A DNA stretch of 64,000 nucleotides from Owenia fusiformis (Eukaryota; Annelida; Polychaeta; Sabellida; Oweniidae), in NCBI GenBank assembly GCA_903813345.2, contig CAIIXF020000012.1:6781615-6845614 (forward strand). Direction: 5' to 3'. The notes under the pieces are model-generated. The model saw only the letters and a program-made list of their open reading frames with translations, was not told the origin of the DNA and did no database searches. Position 1 is the first letter of the stretch, and each line of letters starts with the position of its first letter. The position numbers and the translations under genes are program-made. Below, piece after piece: positions 2,635-64,000 of the stretch.

Positions 2635-24992
<22,358 letters not shown>

Positions 24993-51062: not shown

Positions 51063-51552
51063 TATTAGCTGCTGATCCTATTCAAGATTAAAGTTGGCAA
51101 TGATACTGCATGAAACACTCTGAAGGTTGATTAACAAACTGGGAGAATTCATTATGTTGTATGTCCCACATTTAGTGTGTTGCCGTATTAGCTGCTGATC
51201 CTATTCAAGATTAAAGTTGGCAATGATACTGCATAAAACACTCTGAAGGTTGATTGACAAACTGGGAGAATTCATTATGCTGTATGTCCCACATTTAGTG
51301 TGTGGCAGTATTAGCTGCTGATCCTATTCAAGATTAAAGTTGGCAATGATACTGCATAAAACACTCTGAAGGTTGATTGACAAACTGGGAGAATTCATTA
51401 TGTTTTATGTCCCACATTTAGTGTGTTGCCGTATTAGCTGATGATCCTATTCAAGATTAAAGTTGGCAATGATACTGCATGAAACACTCTGAAGGTTGAT
51501 TGACAAACTGGGAGAATTCATTATGTTGTATGTCCCACATTTAGTGTGTTGC
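51063..51552. repeat. Four ~123-bp tandem repeats in the HIRA 3' UTR
   Basis: Units from about 51063, 51188, 51309 and 51432, nearly identical: ATTAGCTGCTGATCCTATTC ... CATTTAGTGTGTTGC. The array ends five bases from the HIRA stop codon, so on the minus strand it would form the start of the 3' UTR. Confidence 0.88.
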
Positions 51553-51556
51553 AATA

Positions 51557-51670
51557 TCAGGTGATCAATGTGTCCAATTGTTCTTGATATTCAGTGAAGA
51601 GTCTTTGTAACCTCAGATTAGAACCAATAACTGGTAAAATTTCCTGTAGAAGTTTGCGTTTACATACACC
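51557..51670 (-). CDS. HIRA: HIRA last exon
   Basis: Minus-strand acceptor AATTCCAG, phase 0. GVCKRKLLQEILPVIGSNLR then LQRLFTEYQEQLDTLIT and TGA (51559-51557). Strongly HIRA-like, ending within a few residues of the usual C-terminus. Confidence 0.93.
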   Translation of the reverse strand, partial: GVCKRKLLQEILPVIGSNLRLQRLFTEYQEQLDTLIT

Positions 51671-54600
51671 CTGGAATTAAAAAAGTTTACAAAGTTTATG
51701 TTAGGGTCAATCATACACCATGACCAATATAAATGTTGCAACAACAAGTTTTGTGGAAATGTTCAACAATTGCAGTAAACCTCATAATATAAATGTTATT
51801 GAATTTTCAATATGAAAAGGTGATACAATACAAGAGGGTGAAATAGTTTATACAATATGTTAAAAAAAATTCTCCAAGGTAAACATCTTGGAATCATAAC
51901 TCAAAGCTAGGCATCGACATGTAAAATGTCACTACCTGCCATTTGCTACAGACACCAACTGCCACGCATTGTCTACAAAAAAGTTGGTGACGATGACGAA
52001 ATGTCACTATTTGTGGTGGTGACATAATGACACTGCCTGCTGTTAAAAATTCTTATGAAATCCTGTTAATCTCTGTGTCTGAGGATGAACACAGGCTTGA
52101 TGCACGACAATACTTTAAAACTTACCAATATTTTTGATTGCCAGTTGTTTGTTTTACTTTTGTACAATGGTCCTAACAGATCATCACATATCTCACGCAA
52201 CTTATTTTCAATACCTAAAAAAATGAAGGCATTGTACTGAGCTCGGGGGAACTAAAAATACACAATAATCAATTTTTGGTTTGATTCCAAAAACACTGTG
52301 ATATGGTATGTATAGTATATATACCACAGCATGCTACCATATAATATGATATGGCTTATAAGGTAAGGTAAGGTAAGGTATAATATTGTGCGGTTTGACA
52401 AATAATGGCATTCTATACAAAGTGTGGTATTGGGTAGACATTGTATACTTAATATTATTAAATGGTAAGGTTTCAAACAACAAGGCATTTACATGATAAA
52501 ATATTATGCCTTTGTCACTTGAATAAGGTACAAGAGTGAGTTACAACTTGTTAAAGACACCAACATCGATCCGGACCAGCAAACATTTGCGAGTCACAAA
52601 AACATTGACTACAACAATATGTCACAGCGTTTTAAATGGTGAAATTATAAAAATCAACCTTCAAATTCAAATTAAATTAGCAAACAGACTTGAATAATAG
52701 TTTCGAGCATCCGACACCTTAAAACCCCATAGTTCTTTTTCAGCATAAAATTACATACCTTCTTGTGCTAAGTACCGTAGATAAGTCGAGAGCCAGAACC
52801 TATACTCAGTAGATGACTTCAAAGCTAATGATAGATTCACTTGGTTTTCTAAATGACTAATCGTTGTTGATTGTTGAAGTGTGGGGTCAGTTTGGAATAT
52901 TCTATTGGCTTGACTTCCAGCTCTGCAAATTAGAAAATTGCAAATTTTACAACACAATTAACTGAAAATCATGTATTTATACATAAAATTCTCTTGTTTA
53001 CACTGAGCATCTTTTGTCCATATTTCTTTTCTTATTGTTTTACTCAAGTGTGGTTTATGGCCCTTTATTGCAAAGCCGTGGCATGTCCATGTGATATTTA
53101 ATATTTTCTATAAAATAAGTACTGTATGGGTCTTGGTAAAAAGAAAAAGTACCATCTAAACATTGGAATTACAAATAAGCTGTATCAATAAATTATATTG
53201 TATTTCATCGAATTTGTCTGTCTTGTCTTCCTTTCATATAAGCTTATAAATTATGCATAATAAAGTTGGATTAACTGACAAATGCAGCAACAAACATACT
53301 TATTTTTCTGTTGTTGTAAAGTTGCTAAGGGGCCTTTAGAATGGCGTCCATCTTGTGGTAGACAGGAGTGATGATCTGATAATTGTGTCAAGGGGTCTTC
53401 ACGTCTTGGTATGGATAACCTAAGAAAGAGTTGTACATATGAGGTTTCTTATAATATTACAATAAGATTTCTTGAAATATTACAATATCTATTATGGATA
53501 ACCGAAGAAAGTGTCATGTACAAAAGAGTTCTTAAAATCACATCCATCACATCCAAATAGTTATTCTGTCAATATATTCACCCTTTTTACAGTGTACTTA
53601 CCAGCAACCAAGGTCAGGTTTAAATGTGTACAATTTATTGTTGGATAGTGTCACAATTGGGAATCCTTCCTCAGTTACATTCCCACTAGTCAGTGTTACA
53701 GAACCTGAAAATATACAATCACATTACAGTGATCTCCCAAGTATTAAAGCAAGTGGGCATTGCACCCACTTGAGATTTTGATAATAAACTTGCACCCCCC
53801 CCCCCAATTTATTTGTTTGCATGCACTTGAAAATGAGAAAATGCGAAAAATAGCCATATTTTGACCAAATTATGTCTAAATTGAGAATTTTACACCCACT
53901 TGAGAAAATATCCTTAGGAGTACACTGATATTTGATACATGTATGTGGTAGAACCTGTTAAGTGGAACACCTCTGTAAGTGGAACATTTTTCATAGAAAT
54001 AAACATTTTTTTTCATAGAAATAAACATTTTAGATTGAACTACATGATTAAAATATATACAGTAACTTTTTGCATAAAACAAAATAATATAAAAAAGCAT
54101 CAAATCTAGACACCTGCTTCTTGAATAATCTTACCAGATATTATTGCAGCTAAAGATTCATTGCGTATCACAGTTGAGATCTCCGGAATTTTCCTGTAAA
54201 ATAAAAAATTTACTTCATATACTTCAAGTCAAGTGGCGTGCCCACTATTTTTTATAAAGGGATAATTGTACTTTATATTTTGTATTTATTAATAAAATTC
54301 ATCACACTTATAAAACAGTGTATTTGTGCTAAACTGACCAAATTTCACGATGATTGGTACATGGTGGTAATCTCTTAAAATGACAGCCTTAGTGTCATTA
54401 CTTATTGAACGGCCTATATAAAGAACACTAAAATTCAAAACAAGACACAATTGAAATTAATCTTGGTTGAAATATTTAATCAGTTGATAAGTTTTTTAAA
54501 ATCAATTTAATACTCTCAGGATGTCCCATTTAGACAGTCTTATCCCCATGGGTGGATCTAAACATTACAACGGAGGGTGACTTAAAACAGACTCCTTCAA

Positions 54601-54923
54601 TTTTAGGCAAATTATTTTGAGACCGCTTCCAAAAGACCCTTTTTTGCAGGTGTACTTTTTAAAATAGGCCAGAAGCCTATCATTTGATCCCTAGATCCAC
54701 CAATGCCAATGTACATGAATTTCAACACTCAGGCTTTAAAGTGGTATATAACACAACTTACCAGATGTATAATGAACCCCTACATGTGACCAACATGAGG
54801 TATTCTCCATTGCAAGTCAGAACTGCAGCCTTAGCGTCAAATACCATTGAAGGCAAGAGCTTTCTACCAGGAAGACTATAGAGGTTGATTGAGCAATCTG
54901 CACACGCAGAACACACAATATTG
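51557..54923 (-). CDS. HIRA: HIRA histone chaperone homologue, C-terminal seven exons
   Basis: Minus-strand exons, 5' to 3': 54923-54762, 54193-54135, 53704-53602, 53419-53300, 52922-52759, 52214-52126 and 51670-51557. They have AG/GT borders and consistent phases, giving 269 residues plus stop. The peptide matches the HIRA C-terminal domain, with ISHLENQVNLSLALKSSTEY, WLSTYLRYLAQEG, LREICDDLLGPL, LLQEILPVIGSNLRLQRLF and TEYQEQLD. HIRA deposits histone H3.3-H4 independently of replication; this domain is the one that binds CABIN1 in vertebrates. The WD40 half and B domain are not found up to 64000. The gene therefore starts beyond the window, with the lectin gene in an intron, or is a 5'-truncated copy. 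Upstream of the first exon seen is the 19-copy partial-exon array. Confidence 0.9.
52126..52214 (-). CDS. HIRA: HIRA exon, second from end
   Basis: Acceptor TTTTTTTAG, donor TTG|GTAAGT. IENKLREICDDLLGPLYKSK then TNNWQSKIL; phase 1 in, 0 out. Confidence 0.93.
52759..52922 (-). CDS. HIRA: HIRA exon, third from end
   Basis: Acceptor TAATTTGCAG, donor AAG|GTATGT. QTDPTLQQSTTISHLENQVN, SLALKSSTEYRFWLSTYLRY; phase 2 in, 1 out. Confidence 0.93.
53300..53419 (-). CDS. HIRA: HIRA exon, fourth from end
   Basis: Acceptor CTTTCTTAG, donor AATAA|GTATGT, phase 2-2. LSIPRREDPLTQLSDHHSCL and GPLATLQQQKN. The D-P-L-x-Q-x-S-D-H stretch follows the conserved GCW of the previous exon. Confidence 0.88.
53602..53704 (-). 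CDS. HIRA: HIRA exon, fifth from end
   Basis: Acceptor ATTTTCAG, donor GCTG|GTAAGT; phase 1 in, 2 out. VTLTSGNVTEEGFPIVTLSN then LYTFKPDLGC, the G-x-P-I-V-x-L-S-x-x-x-x-Y-x-F strand of the HIRA domain. Confidence 0.9.
54135..54193 (-). CDS. HIRA: HIRA exon, sixth from end
   Basis: Acceptor TATTTTACAG, donor TCTG|GTAAGA; phase 2 in, 1 out. KIPEISTVIRNESLAAIIS. Confidence 0.85.
54762..54923 (-). CDS. HIRA: HIRA exon that seeded the satellite
   Basis: Acceptor TTGTATTATTTCAG, donor ATCTG|GTAAGT, phase 2-2, 162 bases. IVCSACADCSINLYSLPGRK, VFDAKAAVLTCNGEYLMLVT and RGSLYIW, matching the HIRA segment that precedes the W-D/K-x-P linker. It is the only copy of this sequence with the full 3' half and a donor. 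Confidence 0.88.
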
Positions 54924-57826
54924 CTGAAATAATACAATGATTGTAATATAAATATTGCATGTTAGAACTGCAGCCTTAGCGTCAAATACCATTGAAGGCA
55001 AGAGCTTTCTACCAGGAAGACTATAGAGGTTGATTGAGCAATCTGCACACGCAGAACACACAATATTGCTGAAATAATACAATGATTGTAATATAAATAT
55101 TGCATGTTAGAACTGCAGCCTTAGCGTCAAATACCATTGAAGGCAAGAGCTTTCTACCAGGAAGACTATAGAGGTTGATTGAGCAATCTGCACACGCAGA
55201 ACACACAATATTGCTGAAATAATACAATGATTGTAATATAAATATTGCATGTTAGAACTGCAGCCTTAGCGTCAAACACCATTGAAGGCAAGAGCTTTCT
55301 ACCAGGAAGACTATAGAGGTTGATTGAGCAATCTGCACATGCAGAACACACAATATTGCTGAAATAATACAATGATTGTAATATCAATATTGCATGTTAG
55401 GACTACAGCCTTAGAGTCAAATACCATTGAAGGCAAGAGCTTTCTACCAGGAAGACTATAGAGGTTGATTGAGCAATCTGCACATGCAGAACACACAATA
55501 TTGCTGAAATAATACAATGATAGTAATATCAATATTGCATGTTAGGACTGCAGCCTTAGTGTCAAACACCATTGAAGGCAGGAGCTTTCTACCAGGAAGA
55601 CTATAGAGGTTGATTAAGCAATCTGGACATGCAGAACACACAATATAGCTGAAATAATACAATGATAGTAATATAAATATTGCATGTTAGAACTGCAGCC
55701 TTAGCGTCAAATACCATTGAATGCAGGAGCTTTCTACCAGGAAGACTATAGAGGTTGATTGAGCAATCTGCACATGCAGAACACACAATATTGCTGAAAT
55801 AATACAATGATAGTAATATAAATATTGCATGTTAGGACTGCAGCCTTAGTGTCAAACACCATTGAAGGCAGGAGCTTTCTACCAGGAAGACTATAGAGGT
55901 TGATTGAGCAATCTGCACATGCAGAACACACAATGTTGCTGAAATAATACAATGATAGTAATATAAATATTGCATGTTAGGACTACATGCATGTTAGGAC
56001 TACAGCCTTAGCGTCAAACACCAATGAAGGCAGGATCTTTCTACCAGGAAGACTATAGAGGTTGATTGAGCAATCTGCACATGCAGAACACACAATGTTG
56101 CTGAAATAATACAATGATAGTAATATAAATATTGCATGTTAGGACTACATGCATGTTAGGACTACAGCCTTAGCGTCAAACACCAATGAAGGCAGGAGCT
56201 TTCTACCAGGAAGACTATAGAGGTTGATTGAGCAATCTGCACATGCAGAACACACAATATTGCTGAAATAATACAATGATTGTAATATCAATATTGCATG
56301 TTAGGACTGCTGCCTTAGCGTCAAATACCATTGAAGGCAGGAGCTTTCTACCAGGAAGACTATAGAGGTTGATTGAGCAATCTGCACATGCAGAACACAC
56401 AATGTTGCTGAAATAATACAATGATAGTAATATAAATATTGCATGTTAGGACTACATGCATGTTAGGACTACAGCCTTAGCGTCAAACACCAATGAAGGC
56501 AGGATCTTTCTACCAGGAAGACTATAGAGGTTGATTGAGCAATCTGCACATGCAGAACACACAATGTTGCTGAAATAATACAATGATAGTAATATAAATA
56601 TTGCATGTTAGGACTACATGCATGTTAGGACTACAGCCTTAGCGTCAAACACCAATGAAGGCAGGAGCTTTCTACCAGCAAGACTATAGAGGTTGATTGA
56701 GCAATCTGCACATGCAGAACACACAATGTTGCTGAAATAATACAATGATTGTAATATCAATATTGCATGTTAGGACTGCTGCCTTAGCATCAAATACCAC
56801 TGAAGGCAGGAGCTTTCTACCAGGAAGACTATAGAGGTTGATTGAGCAATCTGCACATGCAGAACACACAATATTGCTGAAATACTACAATGATTGTAAT
56901 ATCAATATTGCATGTTAGGACTGCAGCCTTAGCGTCAAATACCATTGAAGGCAGGAGTTTTCTACCAGGAAGACTATAGAGGTTGATAGAGCAATCTGCA
57001 CATGCAGAACACACAATGTTGCTGAAATAATACAATGATAGTAATATATAGTGATGAGGTATTCTCCATTGCAAGTCAGAACTGCAGCCTTAGCGTCAAA
57101 TACCATTGAAGGCAAGAGCTTTCTACCAGGAAGACTATAGAGGTTGATTGAGCAATCTGCACATGCAGAACACACAATGTTGCTGAAATAATACAATGAT
57201 AGTAATATCAATATTGCATGTTAGGACTGCAGCCTTAGCGTCAAATACCATTGAAGGCAGGAGTTTTCTACCAGGAAGACTATAGAGGTTGATAGAGCAA
57301 TCTGCACATGCAGAACACACAATATTGCTGAAATAATACAATGATAGTAATATATAGTGATGAGGTATTCTCCATTGCAAGTCAGAACTGCAGCCTTAGC
57401 GTCAAATACCATTGAAGGCAGGAGCTTTCTACCAGGAAGACTATAGAGGTTGATTGAGCAATCTGCACATGCAGAACACACAATATTGCTGAAATAATAC
57501 AATGATAGTAATATATAGTGATGAGGTATATTCTCCATTGCAAGTCAGAACTGCAGCCTTAGCGTCAAATACCATTGAAGGCAGGAGCTTTCTACCAGGA
57601 AGACTATAGAGGTTGATTGAGCAATCTGCACATGCAGAACACACAATATTGCTGAAATAATACAATGATAGTAATATATAGTGATGAGGTATTCTCCATT
57701 GCAAGTCAGAACTGCAGCCTTAGCGTCAAATACCATTGAAGGCAAGAGCTTTCTACCAGGAAGACTATAGAGGTTGATTGAGCAATCTGCACATGCAGAA
57801 CACACAATGCTGCTGAAATAATACAA
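54797..57826 (-). repeat. 20-unit array of HIRA exon acceptor halves
   Basis: Including the real exon there are 20 units containing AGGTTGATTGAGCAATCTG or a one-base variant. The first seven are spaced exactly 145 bases; later ones are 145-165. Each has about 110-130 bases of exon, the splice acceptor and about 35 bases of intron. Three variants can be seen: plain 145-base units, units with a doubled CATGTTAGGACTA, and five units near 57050-57720 that keep a little more exon (GAGGTATTCTCCATTGCAAG). Differences between units are few. Confidence 0.92.
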
Positions 57827-57887
57827 GACTTGGCAATAACATAAAAATGTCACCCACTTCCATTTACAACATATGCTGACCATTGTT

Positions 57888-58058
57888 ACAGGTGCCAAAT
57901 GCTGTCACAGATGCCAAATGCTGTTACAGATGCCGATTGCTGTAAAAGATGCAAAATGCTGTTTCAGATGCCAAATGCCTATACAGATGCCAAATGCCTA
58001 TACAGATGCCAAATGCTGTTACAGATGCAAAATGAAGTTACAGATGCTGAACTCCAAC
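57888..58058. repeat. 19-bp minisatellite
   Basis: Nine units of GTTACAGATGCCAAATGCT with a few changes, close to the HIRA array. Confidence 0.88.
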
Positions 58059-58849
58059 CACAGAGCATCAGCTGCAAATTAGATGGAGACTATAACAATA
58101 CGCCAACACTTCTGAAGGTAACAATGTTGCATCATAATTACAAGAGTGTTAAGTTACACTGTAGTGTAAGTGGTAATTTTGTCTAATCATTTAATTTGCC
58201 TATTGCATAATTTTTGCCAGGTTCAAAAATTAAATGTCGGAAATACTATCTTCATAATGTCATCCAATGGGAAGTTTCTTGTAATTAGGAAAATAAAAAT
58301 TAAGAAATGACAAAATCTGACCATTCGGCAAATTAAACATTCTGATAAAATACCACTTATACAGTATTTAATTAACAGTCAGTGACCTCCTGCTTCTGAA
58401 TTTATATTGCCCTTCTGAAATTTCGATACTATATGAGTATCCATGTTTATGAAAATTTTTTCATTATAAATTCAAAGTTAGTTTGTAATAACAATAGGTG
58501 TATTGATTACGTTGCATGCAAAATTACCATCAGAAATGTTTTGTTTCTCTATTTGTCTCTAATCATGCAAATCATGTTATCGAAAAAATGCAATTGTGTA
58601 ATACTAAATAATTCACCAATATATACTTATCTTGATCTGACAGATGTAATTGCTGCCAAATCAAGAAGTCAATAAAAGATGTTAAGGCCTAATGTTATGT
58701 GTTACTAATGAAACAAGGGGCATAAAAATCGTGCATTATCTTCAACTAGGACACATTTTGGGTTGGTGGATAATTTGAAAGCAAATCAACAAAATCAGAG
58801 ATTTTATTTCGTATTATTAAAGAAGGCTCACGTAATCAAATTAAATAAA
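58059..58849. other. Between HIRA array and lectin gene
   Basis: Presumably contains the promoter and 5' UTR of the lectin gene at its right end. No TATA-type element or HIRA exon recognised on the minus strand. Confidence 0.4.
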
Positions 58850-59156
58850 ATGGAGATGGAATTGTTATCAGCGTGCTTCTTTTGTCTGCTTTTTGTGAAG
58901 GATGCTATTTCGACTCAGTTAATAACCACAGGGGTAACAGTAAGAGCGAGGATGAATGTTAAGATAATTGACGAGCCTAATGAAATAATTATGAACATTA
59001 ACACATGGAACCTTTGCATGCTCCTGTGTGTCCAGAAAAACACATGCCAGGGGTTTAACTACCATGCCGATTCCTCCAGATGTGAGATGTATACAATAGT
59101 GGGTTGCAAGATCTTTGATAATTTAACAGGATGGAGATATGGTTGCATTGAAACAG
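58850..59156 (+). CDS. Lectin gene exon 1: signal peptide and PAN/apple-like domain
   Basis: ATG in AAAATGG context; donor ACAG|GTTTGA, a weak donor, phase 1. About eight cysteines; C-x3-C, CQGFNYH and RCEMYTIVGC give the PAN-like impression. Domain assignment is moderate. Confidence 0.75.
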
Positions 59157-61814
59157 GTTTGAATTTTACATTTAACAGAGAGTATTACATATCATTTTAC
59201 AATTACTGTAAATACAATTAATTTGGCTATGGTTTCAATTAATGATGGATTGGTGGATTCAGAAAAGCTGCCTAATTAAATATCCATCAAATTTCAGTTT
59301 GGAATTTTTGTCCATTCAAAAATTAAACTTCTTACCCCCTTTACCTGTCAACATGTCATCAATTCTACATTATTCCAAAAGAAATACAGAAAATATCTTA
59401 GTAAATACCTGTCCTAATGACATAAATGTTGACATAAGTTACTTAAGTCCTGAATCTGCTAAATTAAATAGCTGCCGATATTTGAAATTGAGCAAATCCA
59501 TCAAATTAAGCAGTATCAAAATAAGTGTATCAACAGTGCTTAGAGGTAGTACCATAACTAAAAGGAAATCTCAACAAAAGAGTGGTATCGATATGGAGAA
59601 CTGAATTCAACAATGTTTTTCTCTTAGACCAATTATTGAAAACATTCTGTAAAAAACACGGTCCTTTATGTAATGTTTACTGATTGGCAACAATTTAATG
59701 CAAAAATTATTTAGTATATTTTATATGACTGTTGTTAACATTTTTTGTTTTTTAGTTCAACTGTTTTTTGTTCCTTTAAACCAATTCTTCAGAATGAAAT
59801 AAAATGTCTTTCCGAACCTCGTTTGAACATAATAGCATATACAACATTTTCTTACACCTCTCAATATTATAGTTTTACAAAGGAAATTTCGTCAGATTTA
59901 ATGAAAAGTATGCAAAAACTTAAAAAAACAACCCCCCCCCCAAAATAGATAAAAATTAAGATAAATATTTTATTTCATTAACAAGATACCTTTTAAAATC
60001 AACCAATCTTTCCTTCGTACAATTACAATATTGAGACCTAAACAAATTGTGATTATGTCGTTTTGTTCCAATGAGGTTCGGATAGATGTTTCATTTCATT
60101 CCAAACATATGATACCAAAAACAAAAAAAGAAGTATCTGATGTGTTTTCTAAACAATATAGAGAAAAGGATATATATATGTTTCAAATTATAATGTTACC
60201 ATCCAAAAGATGACCATTAAATTGACGATGTGTAAAATGTTCAGAATGTTTTGATGACTGGTTTAAGAGAAGCGCGTGTTCAAAAAGTTCACCATATCGA
60301 TATCTATCCTTTGTTTCAACTTTAGAATAACTTGACTCATAATAACACCTTGTCATGTTTATTTTCTAAAAATCCCTAAAGTGCATACTTTATTTCAAAA
60401 AGACTATAGATTTTTACAATATTGCATCATTTTTCTATAAATGTGGTTATCAGATTTATTATATGGGAGAATTACAACACCCCTACCCCCCACCCTTTTA
60501 TGCATTTTTCCTCTTAAATAACTTCACCAGTTTTAACATATCACAGATCTTTTGGAGTCATAAAGGATACATTTTTAGGTCAATTGTACATGTTGCTTGC
60601 AATTTTGTCATCTCTTATACATCTGATTCTTCCTTCAATATCTCTTCTTGAATTAGAATTTTTCTAGCATTTTTTCTAGAATCACATCTTGTTAGATAAC
60701 ATTCTAGATTCTAAAAATGTTAGAATACTGCATTTCTAATGCTGGAGTTCAAACTTCAAATCCTCTGGAGCATAATACATAAATATGGGAGAACAAACAA
60801 AAATTCCTTGAATTCGACCTAGCTAAAGTCAATATGATTTCAGATCAGCAAAGAAATACAACAATCAGGAACATCAATATAGCACTTAATAAACCTACAT
60901 ATCAGTCTAGCACCTATGATGGGATTGCTTTTAATGAGCCTGCTGGGTTGGCAGAAAAGGCTGTAGATGGTATCAGAAACACTCTATATGGAGATGGTTC
61001 ATGTTCGCATACAACTCCTGAACCAAAGACATGGTGGATCGTTGACCTAAGAGAGTCATATCGCATTAACCAAATTATTATTTGGAACCGACTAAATTAT
61101 GGTAAGGGCCTACCTAAATATTTCAATGTGCGTAGTTACAGCTATTAAAAAGATTCATGTTTCATTAACCCTTTCCCGATGTGAATTTAAGAGGAAAATG
61201 TTGGACCGGTGACGGATAAGTTATGGCGATTTTCAGGTAACTGGAAATGGGGTACACCTCAGGACCTATACTTTAAATTTTACCACTAAAATACAATTTT
61301 TATTAAGCTGCAGTATCACATGTCAACTTGTCAAAATCTGGTGTAAATAGAACTGGAGATATTGTCATTTTTCTTTGATGTATGTAAATAAAAATAGTGG
61401 TGCCAAAAGGAGCCTTTCGTCCTGAAAGGTATTATGTAATAAGTCTTCGTTGTGAGAGGGTTAACCAAAAAACTTGGTAATTCCGAGAGCTTTGAAATCT
61501 TCAGAAAACATACTTAATTGTATTTTAGTGATAAAATTTAAAGTACTCTAATTCAATGATATTTTCTTTTTCAAGAGTTCAGACTCCATGACTTTTCCAT
61601 TGACACAGCCTGTCTGTTTGATGGAGTGAACCCAGACAACACAAACTGGTGCAGACAGCATCTGCAGGTCGGGACATTGAATGACAACCCTACAGCCATT
61701 GCACTTCCACCATCCGCAGTTGGTAGATTCGTAAAGATACAAATGGATGAACAAGGTGTCTTAGTTTTATGTGAATTTGAGGTCTACGTAGAGTATGCTG
61801 CTACATGTGTTTAG
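58850..61814 (+). CDS. Secreted PAN/apple-like + F-type lectin protein, complete
   Basis: Three exons, 58850-59156, 60844-61101 and 61576-61814, join in frame to 267 codons plus TAG, with phase 1 junctions. A signal peptide (MELLSACFFCLLFVKDAIST; the preceding M-E is also possible) leads into a PAN/apple-like domain (WNLCMLLCVQ, CQGFNYHADSSRCEM). An F-type lectin (FTP, fucolectin) domain follows: NIALNKPTYQSSTYDG, AEKAVDG, TWWIVDLRESYRINQI and a C-terminal GRFVKIQMDE. The His...Arg...Arg sugar-binding frame is kept with substitutions (see findings). F-type lectins bind fucosylated glycans, often in innate immunity. No membrane segment, so secretion is inferred. AATAAA follows at 61852. Confidence 0.88.
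59242..60240 (+). other. Intron 1 with unassigned open stretches
   Basis: Two open stretches on the plus strand (59242-59604, 120 codons; 60031-60213, 60 codons) have coding-like composition (PSNFSLEFLSIQK; NEVRIDVSFHSKHMIPKTKK) but no recognised family. They have no good splice borders and are separated by stops. A decayed mobile element is the likeliest explanation. Confidence 0.3.
60844..61101 (+). CDS. Lectin gene exon 2: N-terminal part of F-type lectin
   Basis: Acceptor TGATTTCAG, donor TATG|GTAAGG, phase 1-1. ALNKPTYQSSTYDG, AEKAVDGIRN, DGSCSHTTPEPKTWWIVDL and INQIIIWNRLNY are canonical for the FTP domain. Confidence 0.93.
61576..61814 (+). CDS. Lectin gene exon 3: C-terminal part of F-type lectin
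   Basis: Acceptor CTTTTTCAAG; phase 1 entry. FRLHDFSIDTACLFDGVN, GRFVKIQMDEQGVLVLCEFE and VYVEYAATCV, then TAG at 61812-61814. Confidence 0.9.
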
Positions 61815-61851
61815 ATCCCTGGACTATTCATAGAGAAAAGATTTATCTCTT

Positions 61852-61857
61852 AATAAA
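61852..61857 (+). terminator. Polyadenylation signal of lectin gene
   Basis: AATAAA 38 bases after the stop codon; more AATAAA-like words follow at 61880-61890 and 61984. Confidence 0.6.
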
Positions 61858-62541
61858 GCAAGGATGGTCATATCAGATAAATAAATAACTGGCTATTAGA
61901 GCTAAACAATATACAGAGTATGATAGTGCCTAATATGTATTCGAACATGACTGTATTCACGCCTTCTATAAACTGTGAAAAAAATAAACATTTCACCCAG
62001 GGTATATTCCTGAACAATGCCCCTGGTAATACGTGTAATGTGTGACATCACAACGGCGGACAGTAGTAATGGCGGACCAAAATGAATATTCGAAACATTT
62101 TGGTGAGTTTTTCATGTTCGAATCGTAATATAGACCTCAGAACAGGTGAAATATCGTTGAATACACCCCTTAGGACTAGGCACAAAAGCTTTCGAACCCC
62201 TTACTCCCTTTGATTGTTCGGGATACAGAAAACGTTCGTGCCTAACCCTGCTGGGTGTATTCAGAAAATTTACATGACTAGTTTCTATTTATATTTTATC
62301 TATTGCTTTCTATTGTTAATATTGAATATTCTCTCAGTGCTCATACATATAAATAGTAGATTGTTATATACAATGTGAGACCTTACATTTAGACATTTCA
62401 GTGAGTATGATGTACAGTGTAACCAAATGTTTTTTTGAAGTCATTTTTTTGTGTCATGTTGAGCCAACTATCTTTAAATATTTAATGATTTTATGCTCTC
62501 TCTTGTATATTAAAATGTAAATAAACTCATATTGCTAAATT
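61858..62541. other. Intergenic, nothing recognised
   Basis: Contains ATGGCGGACCAAAATG near 62070 but no sustained reading frame. Confidence 0.4.
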
Positions 62542-62913
62542 TAAAGTGGCAATAAGGACTGTAGAATAAATAAGAAAGTTTTTTCATTTTTTCTGAGCTA
62601 TCAAGGCAACATTTGGTTTAACATCTTCTTTGACATACCTATTTTCTTAAAATGTATGTATATTATCAATTTCAGCTTTAAGAAGTGTAAATTCAGTTCA
62701 AAGCTTCAAAAAGGGGACTTCCACTTTCATATTTTTAAGATCCACCATGTTTCAAGAGGAATATCAGCTAAAATAATGTTTATCTAGGGGGTTTCTTTGT
62801 AGATAATAAAAATAGATGTTAGTCTTGATGAAATATCCAAACTTAAACATATTTTAACACTGGTCCATGGTCGTTGAATGACCCCTCTGCACTAATTATT
62901 GCACCTTTAATCT
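62542..62913. mobile_element. MITE-like repeat, copy 2
   Basis: Second copy of the element at 14996-15358, about 48 kb away, in the same orientation. Confidence 0.75.
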
Positions 62914-63269
62914 CATGGTCTTATTATTCAGCATTTTTGTTTGCTCCAGAGTACACGGGGAGATATGCGGAGTAATAAAATAGGACTCATGGCAGTACTC
63001 ATTTCAGTAATTTTTTTATTCATTGAAAAAAACATTTGAAAGCAGTTACATTAACATATACAATATACATAATATCATTGGAGTCACACAATTTTCCATC
63101 ATATTCAGTAAATATTAGTAATAAGCAGTGATGACATGAGAAGTGATTTATTGCATGTTTTAGTACTAGATGAGTACTCAAATGATGAGTAATAAAATAC
63201 CGATAATCTTATTGATTTTTCATTACTCAATGAGCACTCATAAACATGCCGAGTACTCAGTTACTAAAC

Positions 63270-63353
63270 TGTGCAAAATAAGTACTAAATTAGCACTCGT
63301 GGCATGAGTGCTCATGAGCGCGCTTTCGCCAAGTGCTAATTTAGTACTGATTT
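63270..63353. repeat. Palindrome with repeated AGTACT/AGCACT words
   Basis: CAAAATAAGTACTAAATTAGCACT is mirrored by AGTGCTAATTTAGTACTGATTTTG around CGTGGCATGAGTGCTCATGAGCGCG. The preceding 150 bases also carry many GAGTACTCA-type words. Confidence 0.75.
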
Positions 63354-63474
63354 TGTACTTATTGAGGGATCCCTGTGTATGGAACACCTGTTAATAACGA
63401 ACAGTGTTGTCCAATTCGACAAGCTTATCCACTTAAAATAAATTTGATTACAGTTGGCTAGAGAATATATAAGG

Positions 63475-63591
63475 GTTATGCACTGGCAGGTTTTGGATAC
63501 AGGGAATATCCCAAGGGATACACAATTTATATACAAGATGTATTGTATATCCCAAGGGATATTCCATGTATCCAAACCGACTGTGCATAAC
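63475..63591. repeat. Palindrome
   Basis: GTTATGCACTGGCAGGTTTTGGATACAGGGAATATCCCAAGGGATA is mirrored by TATCCCAAGGGATATTCCATGTATCCAAACCGACTGTGCATAAC. Open frames on both strands here are mirror products. Confidence 0.85.
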
Positions 63592-63592
63592 T

Positions 63593-63780
63593 GGTGTATC
63601 TCATACTTTTTTAAACTTTTTCAAACTTTTGAAGTTTCCGGGAGCGGGATGGATATATTATATCTGCCCGCATTTGGCCTGGAGCGGGACATATACAATA
63701 TATCCTGCCCGCTCCTCAGATATGATATATATTCCCGAGTAATATCTACCCCAAACCCACTTAAGTATGAGATACACTCA
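63593..63780. repeat. Nested palindromes
   Basis: TGTATCTCATACTT (63595) pairs with AAGTATGAGATACA (63763). Inside, GGAGCGGGATGGATATATTATATCTGCCCG pairs with its variant ending GATATATTCCCGAG-side sequence, and GGAGCGGGACATATAC with TGCCCGCTCC. Confidence 0.7.
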
Positions 63781-64000
63781 GAATAACCTCCAAATGCATT
63801 GTCTATATGTACCACATTTGGATGTTAGCACTTTGTAGAGGTGCCATTAGACAATGATTTTAATATCTTCTTGCAAATTAGGGAGAAAATAGTGGGATCA
63901 ATAAAGACAATTCTTTAAATAAAAAAAATAAAAATAAAAACATGTATTTAAACAGACATAATGCATCTTCAAATATTATGTCTCACAATTTCGCCCAGAG

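Follow-up and report, generated by a model that had tools for sequence, protein, structure and literature searches.

The window analysed here is a stretch of 64,000 nucleotides (C12:6781615-6845614) from an assembly of 498 Mb in 525 contigs, and part of a HIRA gene lies on its minus strand. A spliced alignment of human HIRA against window positions 51401-64000 and C12:6845615-6868000 gave 29 ordered pieces on the minus strand, at C12:6833180-6866503. The pieces for human residues ~560-696 were forced and, when joined, contained one stop; most of them were excluded from counts; 22 HIRA exons were retained in the edge-copy test and 21 in splice-site scoring and the enrichment test. The exon at 54762-54923 encodes part of HIRA, as judged by matches to PDB 5yje_A (E 2.4e-5) and Pfam Hira PF07569 (39.8 bits, cut-off 25). 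The initial annotation had allowed that HIRA might be expressed from a different locus. This was unsupported, as Pfam Hira and the human protein matched the C-terminal HIRA domain only at the array locus. The HIRA features in the window are:

51063..51552, minus strand: four tandem 123-bp units (96% matches) that begin ~5 bp past the HIRA stop codon, in what is presumably the 3' UTR
51566..51670, minus strand: last HIRA coding exon as aligned; stop TGA at 51559-51557 by eye
53300..53419, minus strand: HIRA exon with a decayed acceptor-edge copy that starts 119 nt before the acceptor
54761-54760, minus strand: donor of the intact HIRA exon, score 11.5
54762..54923, minus strand: intact HIRA exon, 162 nt, phase 2, the innermost array unit, placed by spliced alignment and by PDB and Pfam matches
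54924..57826, minus strand: half-exon satellite of 19 truncated units, each with the acceptor and the first ~113-131 nt of the exon and without a donor

Twenty tandem acceptors lie on the minus strand at 54809-57826 of the window. TTGTATTATTTCAG is exact in 19 of the 20, and the exception (56877-56890) is a single T to G change. Each truncated unit holds ~113-131 nt of exon and then runs into the next intronic tail; unit lengths are 145 bp (n=11), 161 bp (n=3), 162 bp (n=4) and 163 bp (n=1). The tandem array has a TRF score of 4235, far beyond chance, and the DNA of the intact exon gave at least 20 matches in the 498-Mb assembly, all at the HIRA array. It occupies the 3' end of a 9,955-bp HIRA intron and, since HIRA is on the minus strand, lies upstream of exon 54762-54923 in transcription. 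It is near certain that this anatomy is that of a half-exon satellite. The claim of 19 extra copies with the acceptor and none with the donor was confirmed (the best internal GT scores only 4.8), and the 110-130 coding bases proposed for each copy were refined to about 113-131 nt. Within the same intron, plus-strand ORFs at 58712-61814 include a PAN domain and an F5/8 type C-like domain and are probably a nested gene opposite HIRA.

Splice sites were scored against a reference of 74 acceptors and 72 donors from HIRA, clathrin, VCP and two EEF2 genes of the same genome. Nineteen of the 20 array acceptors scored 9.7-11.3 and one scored 7.2, compared with a reference median of 10.4 and range of 2.6-15.3 (n=74). 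No good donor was found inside the truncated units, in which the best GT scored 4.8 against 11.5 for the true donor and a reference 10th percentile of 6.1 (n=72). The truncated units, with strong acceptors and no good donor, are therefore half-exons, and the scores bear out the earlier picture of about 20 usable-looking 3' splice sites before one usable donor. In the HIRA phase, the reading from each of the 19 upstream acceptors towards the true donor reaches a stop after 39-89 codons. Every upstream acceptor thus leads to a stop, and long exons would not yield HIRA protein.

These stops contradict the idea that the copies are real coding repeats kept in a long HIRA isoform, to which we attach almost no probability. 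The exon-derived parts can be read without a stop in the HIRA frame, but translation from any of the 19 upstream acceptors ends within 39-89 codons and the frame is shifted by the 145-, 161- and 163-bp units. The initial observation that the copies contain no stops in the HIRA frame holds over the 102 shared exon columns; only ~0.4 stops are expected among the 20 minor alleles, so stop-free copies are no evidence of coding. An exonic VNTR would keep an open frame through the repeats, and from each upstream acceptor a stop was found instead. Mutually exclusive exon clusters are likewise tandem exon copies in an intron, but they need complete exons with both splice sites, whereas the truncated HIRA units lack one of them, with donors of at most 4.8.

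We also considered an intron gain or loss under way, in which the units would serve to build a new intron or exon, as happened in potato RdRp and has been proposed for the amphioxus globins. In potato, tandem duplication across an intron-exon boundary, as in the HIRA array, produced a new intron, and intron gain was put forward as a model for mirages, the boundary minisatellites of amphioxus (PMC3087553). In potato, however, the duplicated exon segment acquired a donor and the new intron is spliced. The HIRA duplicates appear to supply usable acceptors and no usable donor, since cryptic donors in the units score at most 4.8, below the reference 10th percentile of 6.1, and no upstream acceptor gives an in-frame product. 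We consider intron gain at this array very unlikely.

The truncated units fall into three types, which run BBBABAACCACCAAAAAAA from the outer to the inner end. Type B (4 of 19) extends deeper into the exon and type C (4 of 19) carries a 17-bp internal duplication. Unit 9 is identical to unit 12 and unit 18 to unit 19, and there are 17 distinct sequences among the 19. The block ACC is present twice, and this block and the identical units are as would arise from duplication of several units at once. Similarity to the native exon is highest in the units at both ends (97-100%) and lower in the middle of the array (down to 93%), with a mean identity of 95.8% for the 19 truncated units over 102 exon columns. 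Ahead of the exon, the outermost unit agrees with the others over the final 14 nt only, and the inter-unit filler is absent from the outer flank of the array.

The diversity of the units bears on a possible assembly artefact, in which the assembler inflated a short array or heterozygous copies. The array is seen in a single assembly, its true copy number may differ, and a mis-assembled mirage is reported for the amphioxus draft (PMC3087553). Against this, the 17 distinct sequences, their three types and structured order, and the comparable arrays at several loci described below make an artefact highly improbable.

Eighteen of the 102 exon columns are variable: 7 of 34 at first, 4 of 34 at second and 7 of 34 at third codon positions. 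Of the 20 minor alleles 8 are synonymous and 12 non-synonymous, against an expected synonymous share of 0.28 (P=0.32), and no codon bias or other sign of selection was found in the copy variants over the 102 shared exon columns. The copy variation in these columns fits drift. The intronic tail has 2 variable columns of 26, compared with 18 of 102 in the exon part, a small difference that leaves room for weak constraint. A coding function of the copies was rejected on the basis of the missing codon bias and the read-through stops. By eye, the site that is CTGAC at the native exon reads CTAAC in units of types A and C, and type C has the motif twice, 38-60 nt upstream of the next acceptor. We take CTAAC to resemble a branch-point motif, and this may be a branch-point change.

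A functional role for the array as a regulator of HIRA splicing was also weighed. Competing acceptors would slow splicing or divert transcripts to degraded, stop-containing forms and so tune the HIRA level. All 20 acceptors score 7.2-11.3, inside the range of real acceptors, and a stop results from each upstream acceptor choice; the branch-point-like CTAAC would fit as well. The copies nevertheless show no sign of selection, and they are half-exons without a partner donor. Of the interpretation in the initial annotation, the splice-site anatomy stands, and the copies show no sign of selection behind the proposed regulation. Similar arrays in an unrelated housekeeping gene and in an EGF gene further point to a general mutational process, and we regard the regulator as unlikely. 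The arrays found at other exon edges are:

C12:6862150-6863384 (L003:150-1384): second large HIRA array, on the intron side, from the donor half of exon C12:6863333-6863415
C12:15414600-15415230 (L028): clathrin heavy chain donor-half array, by exon C12:15415168-15415313
10610..10717 of the window, plus strand: intact EGF-like exon adjoining a decayed donor-half array (boundaries by eye)
10648..11520 of the window, plus strand: decayed EGF donor-half array with a 122/235-bp period (by eye), overlapping the 3' part of the exon

The second HIRA array has 12 tandem donors, one native and 11 in half-exon copies, with a period of 106 bp in 10 of 11 steps and 104 bp in one, and any decoy donor leads to a stop. 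The idea that its 106-bp units are poison exons was rejected: their cryptic acceptor scores 0.8, below the lowest reference acceptor (2.6). Clathrin was picked before its locus was seen, and its protein search had already shown one partial copy before the locus was fetched. Its array has 9 tandem donors (one native and 8 copies; 70-bp period, 98% matches). Each decoy leads to a stop, and the best AG in the first repeat unit scores 2.6. Seven of the 8 decoys score 8.6 compared with 6.8 for the native donor, so the donors there may plausibly compete, and not every array need be 'silent'. In the EGF array several copies contain stops (by eye). The edge copy at HIRA exon 53300-53419 is 48 nt long with 81% identity and crosses the edge, with CG in place of the acceptor AG. 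No exon-edge arrays were found in the two EEF2 genes, and no half-exon rows were seen for ATP1A in a protein search only. Exon-edge arrays thus recur across genes in this genome.

Three further observations concern these genes. A VCP array of 21-114-bp units with GTATGT-like motifs (C1:2675279-2675788, L031) begins exactly at an exon donor and contains no exon bases. Another VCP exon is present twice (C1:2677966-2678160 and 2678366-2678557), both copies matching human VCP ~393-459 and 72-73% identical to human; these are perhaps mutually exclusive exons. A Na,K-ATPase exon (human residues ~129-170) occurs six times at C10:26077305-26083731 with ~0.8-2.2-kb spacing, perhaps as a cluster of alternative exons.

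By BLAST, copies that cross the edge were found within the same gene for 4 of 152 exon edges in five genes. The 572 comparisons of an edge with another gene gave 2 short matches, neither crossing the edge; 36 EEF2-paralogue comparisons, of which 30 had matches, were set aside. Four of the 8 arrays in the five genes touch an exon edge compared with 0.83 expected (P=0.005), for arrays of period at least 20 and at least 3 copies that were listed by hand under thresholds chosen after the arrays had been seen. The count was 3 of 7 (P=0.017) without the 54924-57826 array and 2 of 5 (P=0.035) for the non-HIRA genes. In the strictest count, with the 54924-57826 array dropped and the abutting VCP array taken as touching no edge, it was 2 of 7 (P=0.12). 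A preference of tandem arrays for exon edges is therefore suggestive only.

Twenty 10-kb segments, set at fixed positions on C1-C10 as a random control, contained 12 arrays (period at least 60, at least 3 copies). None of the 12 was an evident exon-edge array, 5 being read in sequence (L006 and L010 at one end only) and 7 by unit consensus only. The control segments are without gene models, so this is no proof of absence, and a genome-wide claim is unsupported. By eye, L006 and L010 were coding-repeat-like. A 149-bp x 7.5 array (L011:3936-5055, C4; 97% matches) has a unit that by eye resembles a tRNA gene.

The closest known systems are the mirages of amphioxus. These minisatellites at intron/exon boundaries are described in Adh3 and the globins BflGb6 and BflGb9 (PMC3087553), and reported in PGBD5 with troponin C cited (PMC3902484). 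Mirages are tandem copies over one exon edge, acceptor or donor, with an intact exon at one end, like the HIRA array; their units are 81-100% identical and they are reported not to disturb splicing (PMC3087553, PMC3902484). BflGb6 is nearly the HIRA case, with a 150-160 bp unit made of the intron 3' end and the exon 5' part (PMC3087553). The marks of a mirage recur here. The 19 truncated units all cross the acceptor, as tandem copies spanning an intron/exon boundary, and the authentic exon at 54762-54923 remains intact beside them, in frame in the spliced HIRA alignment. The units are partly homogenised within the cluster (9 with 12, 18 with 19), and acceptor and donor boundaries are both affected, given the donor-side arrays in HIRA and clathrin.

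HIRA differs from the amphioxus mirages in having two large arrays in one gene, one on the acceptor side and one on the donor side. The known mirages are reported for cephalochordates, whereas the genome with the HIRA array looks protostome by its UbdA-type Hox peptides. In two Hox genes (C1:18.02 and 18.08 Mb) the homeodomain is followed by QAIKEINEQ and QQIKDLNES, which we take to be UbdA peptides of protostome Hox genes; the pair recalls lophotrochozoan Lox2 and Lox4. That the genome is not amphioxus is well supported. A COX1 search of the assembly gave no match. The HIRA array has 20 units and BflGb6 3-6. For amphioxus, polymorphism and normal splicing have been demonstrated, whereas the HIRA array is seen in the sequence of one assembly. 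No mirages outside cephalochordates were found under that name in the open-access literature searched. Human variable internal tandem repeats at exon-intron boundaries are likewise boundary repeats able to alter splicing, but differ in their ~30-bp units x ~4, recent segmental duplications and transcript evidence of altered gene structure (PMC2812944). Relative to the known mirages, the branch of animals, the number of copies and the recurrence are new.

The HIRA array is therefore most likely a mirage-type minisatellite, produced by tandem duplication across one exon edge, with mostly silent acceptors and a near-neutral existence. A stretch made of the HIRA intron's 3' end and ~115-130 nt from the start of the following exon would have been duplicated in tandem and then amplified, presumably by unequal exchange or slippage. 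Because the duplication crosses one exon edge only, the complete exon stays at the donor end and half-exons stack on the intron side, and because the complete exon is retained the message can stay intact. Both HIRA arrays, clathrin and the EGF exon have this same layout, with the complete exon outermost and the partial copies on the intron side. Since the layout follows from geometry, the placement needs no selection, which need only spare the complete exon.

The spliceosome most likely pairs the sole good donor with the nearest acceptor by exon definition (162 nt). The remaining acceptors would be mostly silent, their rare use giving transcripts with early stops, and the array is probably close to neutral. 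Such arrays would be tolerated because half-exons have no partner splice site and one intact exon is always left. The similar arrays at other exon edges argue that this genome is prone to such mutations, and against special HIRA regulation.

A bolder and rather doubtful extension is that exon-edge duplication is preferential in this lineage, perhaps coupled to transcription or splicing. Many genes would then carry half-exon satellites, tolerated since exon definition ignores half-exons, as a large reservoir for new introns and splice-site copy-number variation. Transcript support is needed for gene models and copy numbers in the vicinity of such arrays. The arrays are natural splice-choice experiments in essential single-locus genes, with up to 20 near-equal acceptors for one donor or 9-12 near-equal donors for one acceptor, and they allow one to ask how strict exon definition is, how wrong choices are cleared and whether they feed intron gain. 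If the recurrence holds, exon-edge satellites would be no lancelet oddity but a side effect that tandem duplication generally has in animal genomes rich in repeats.
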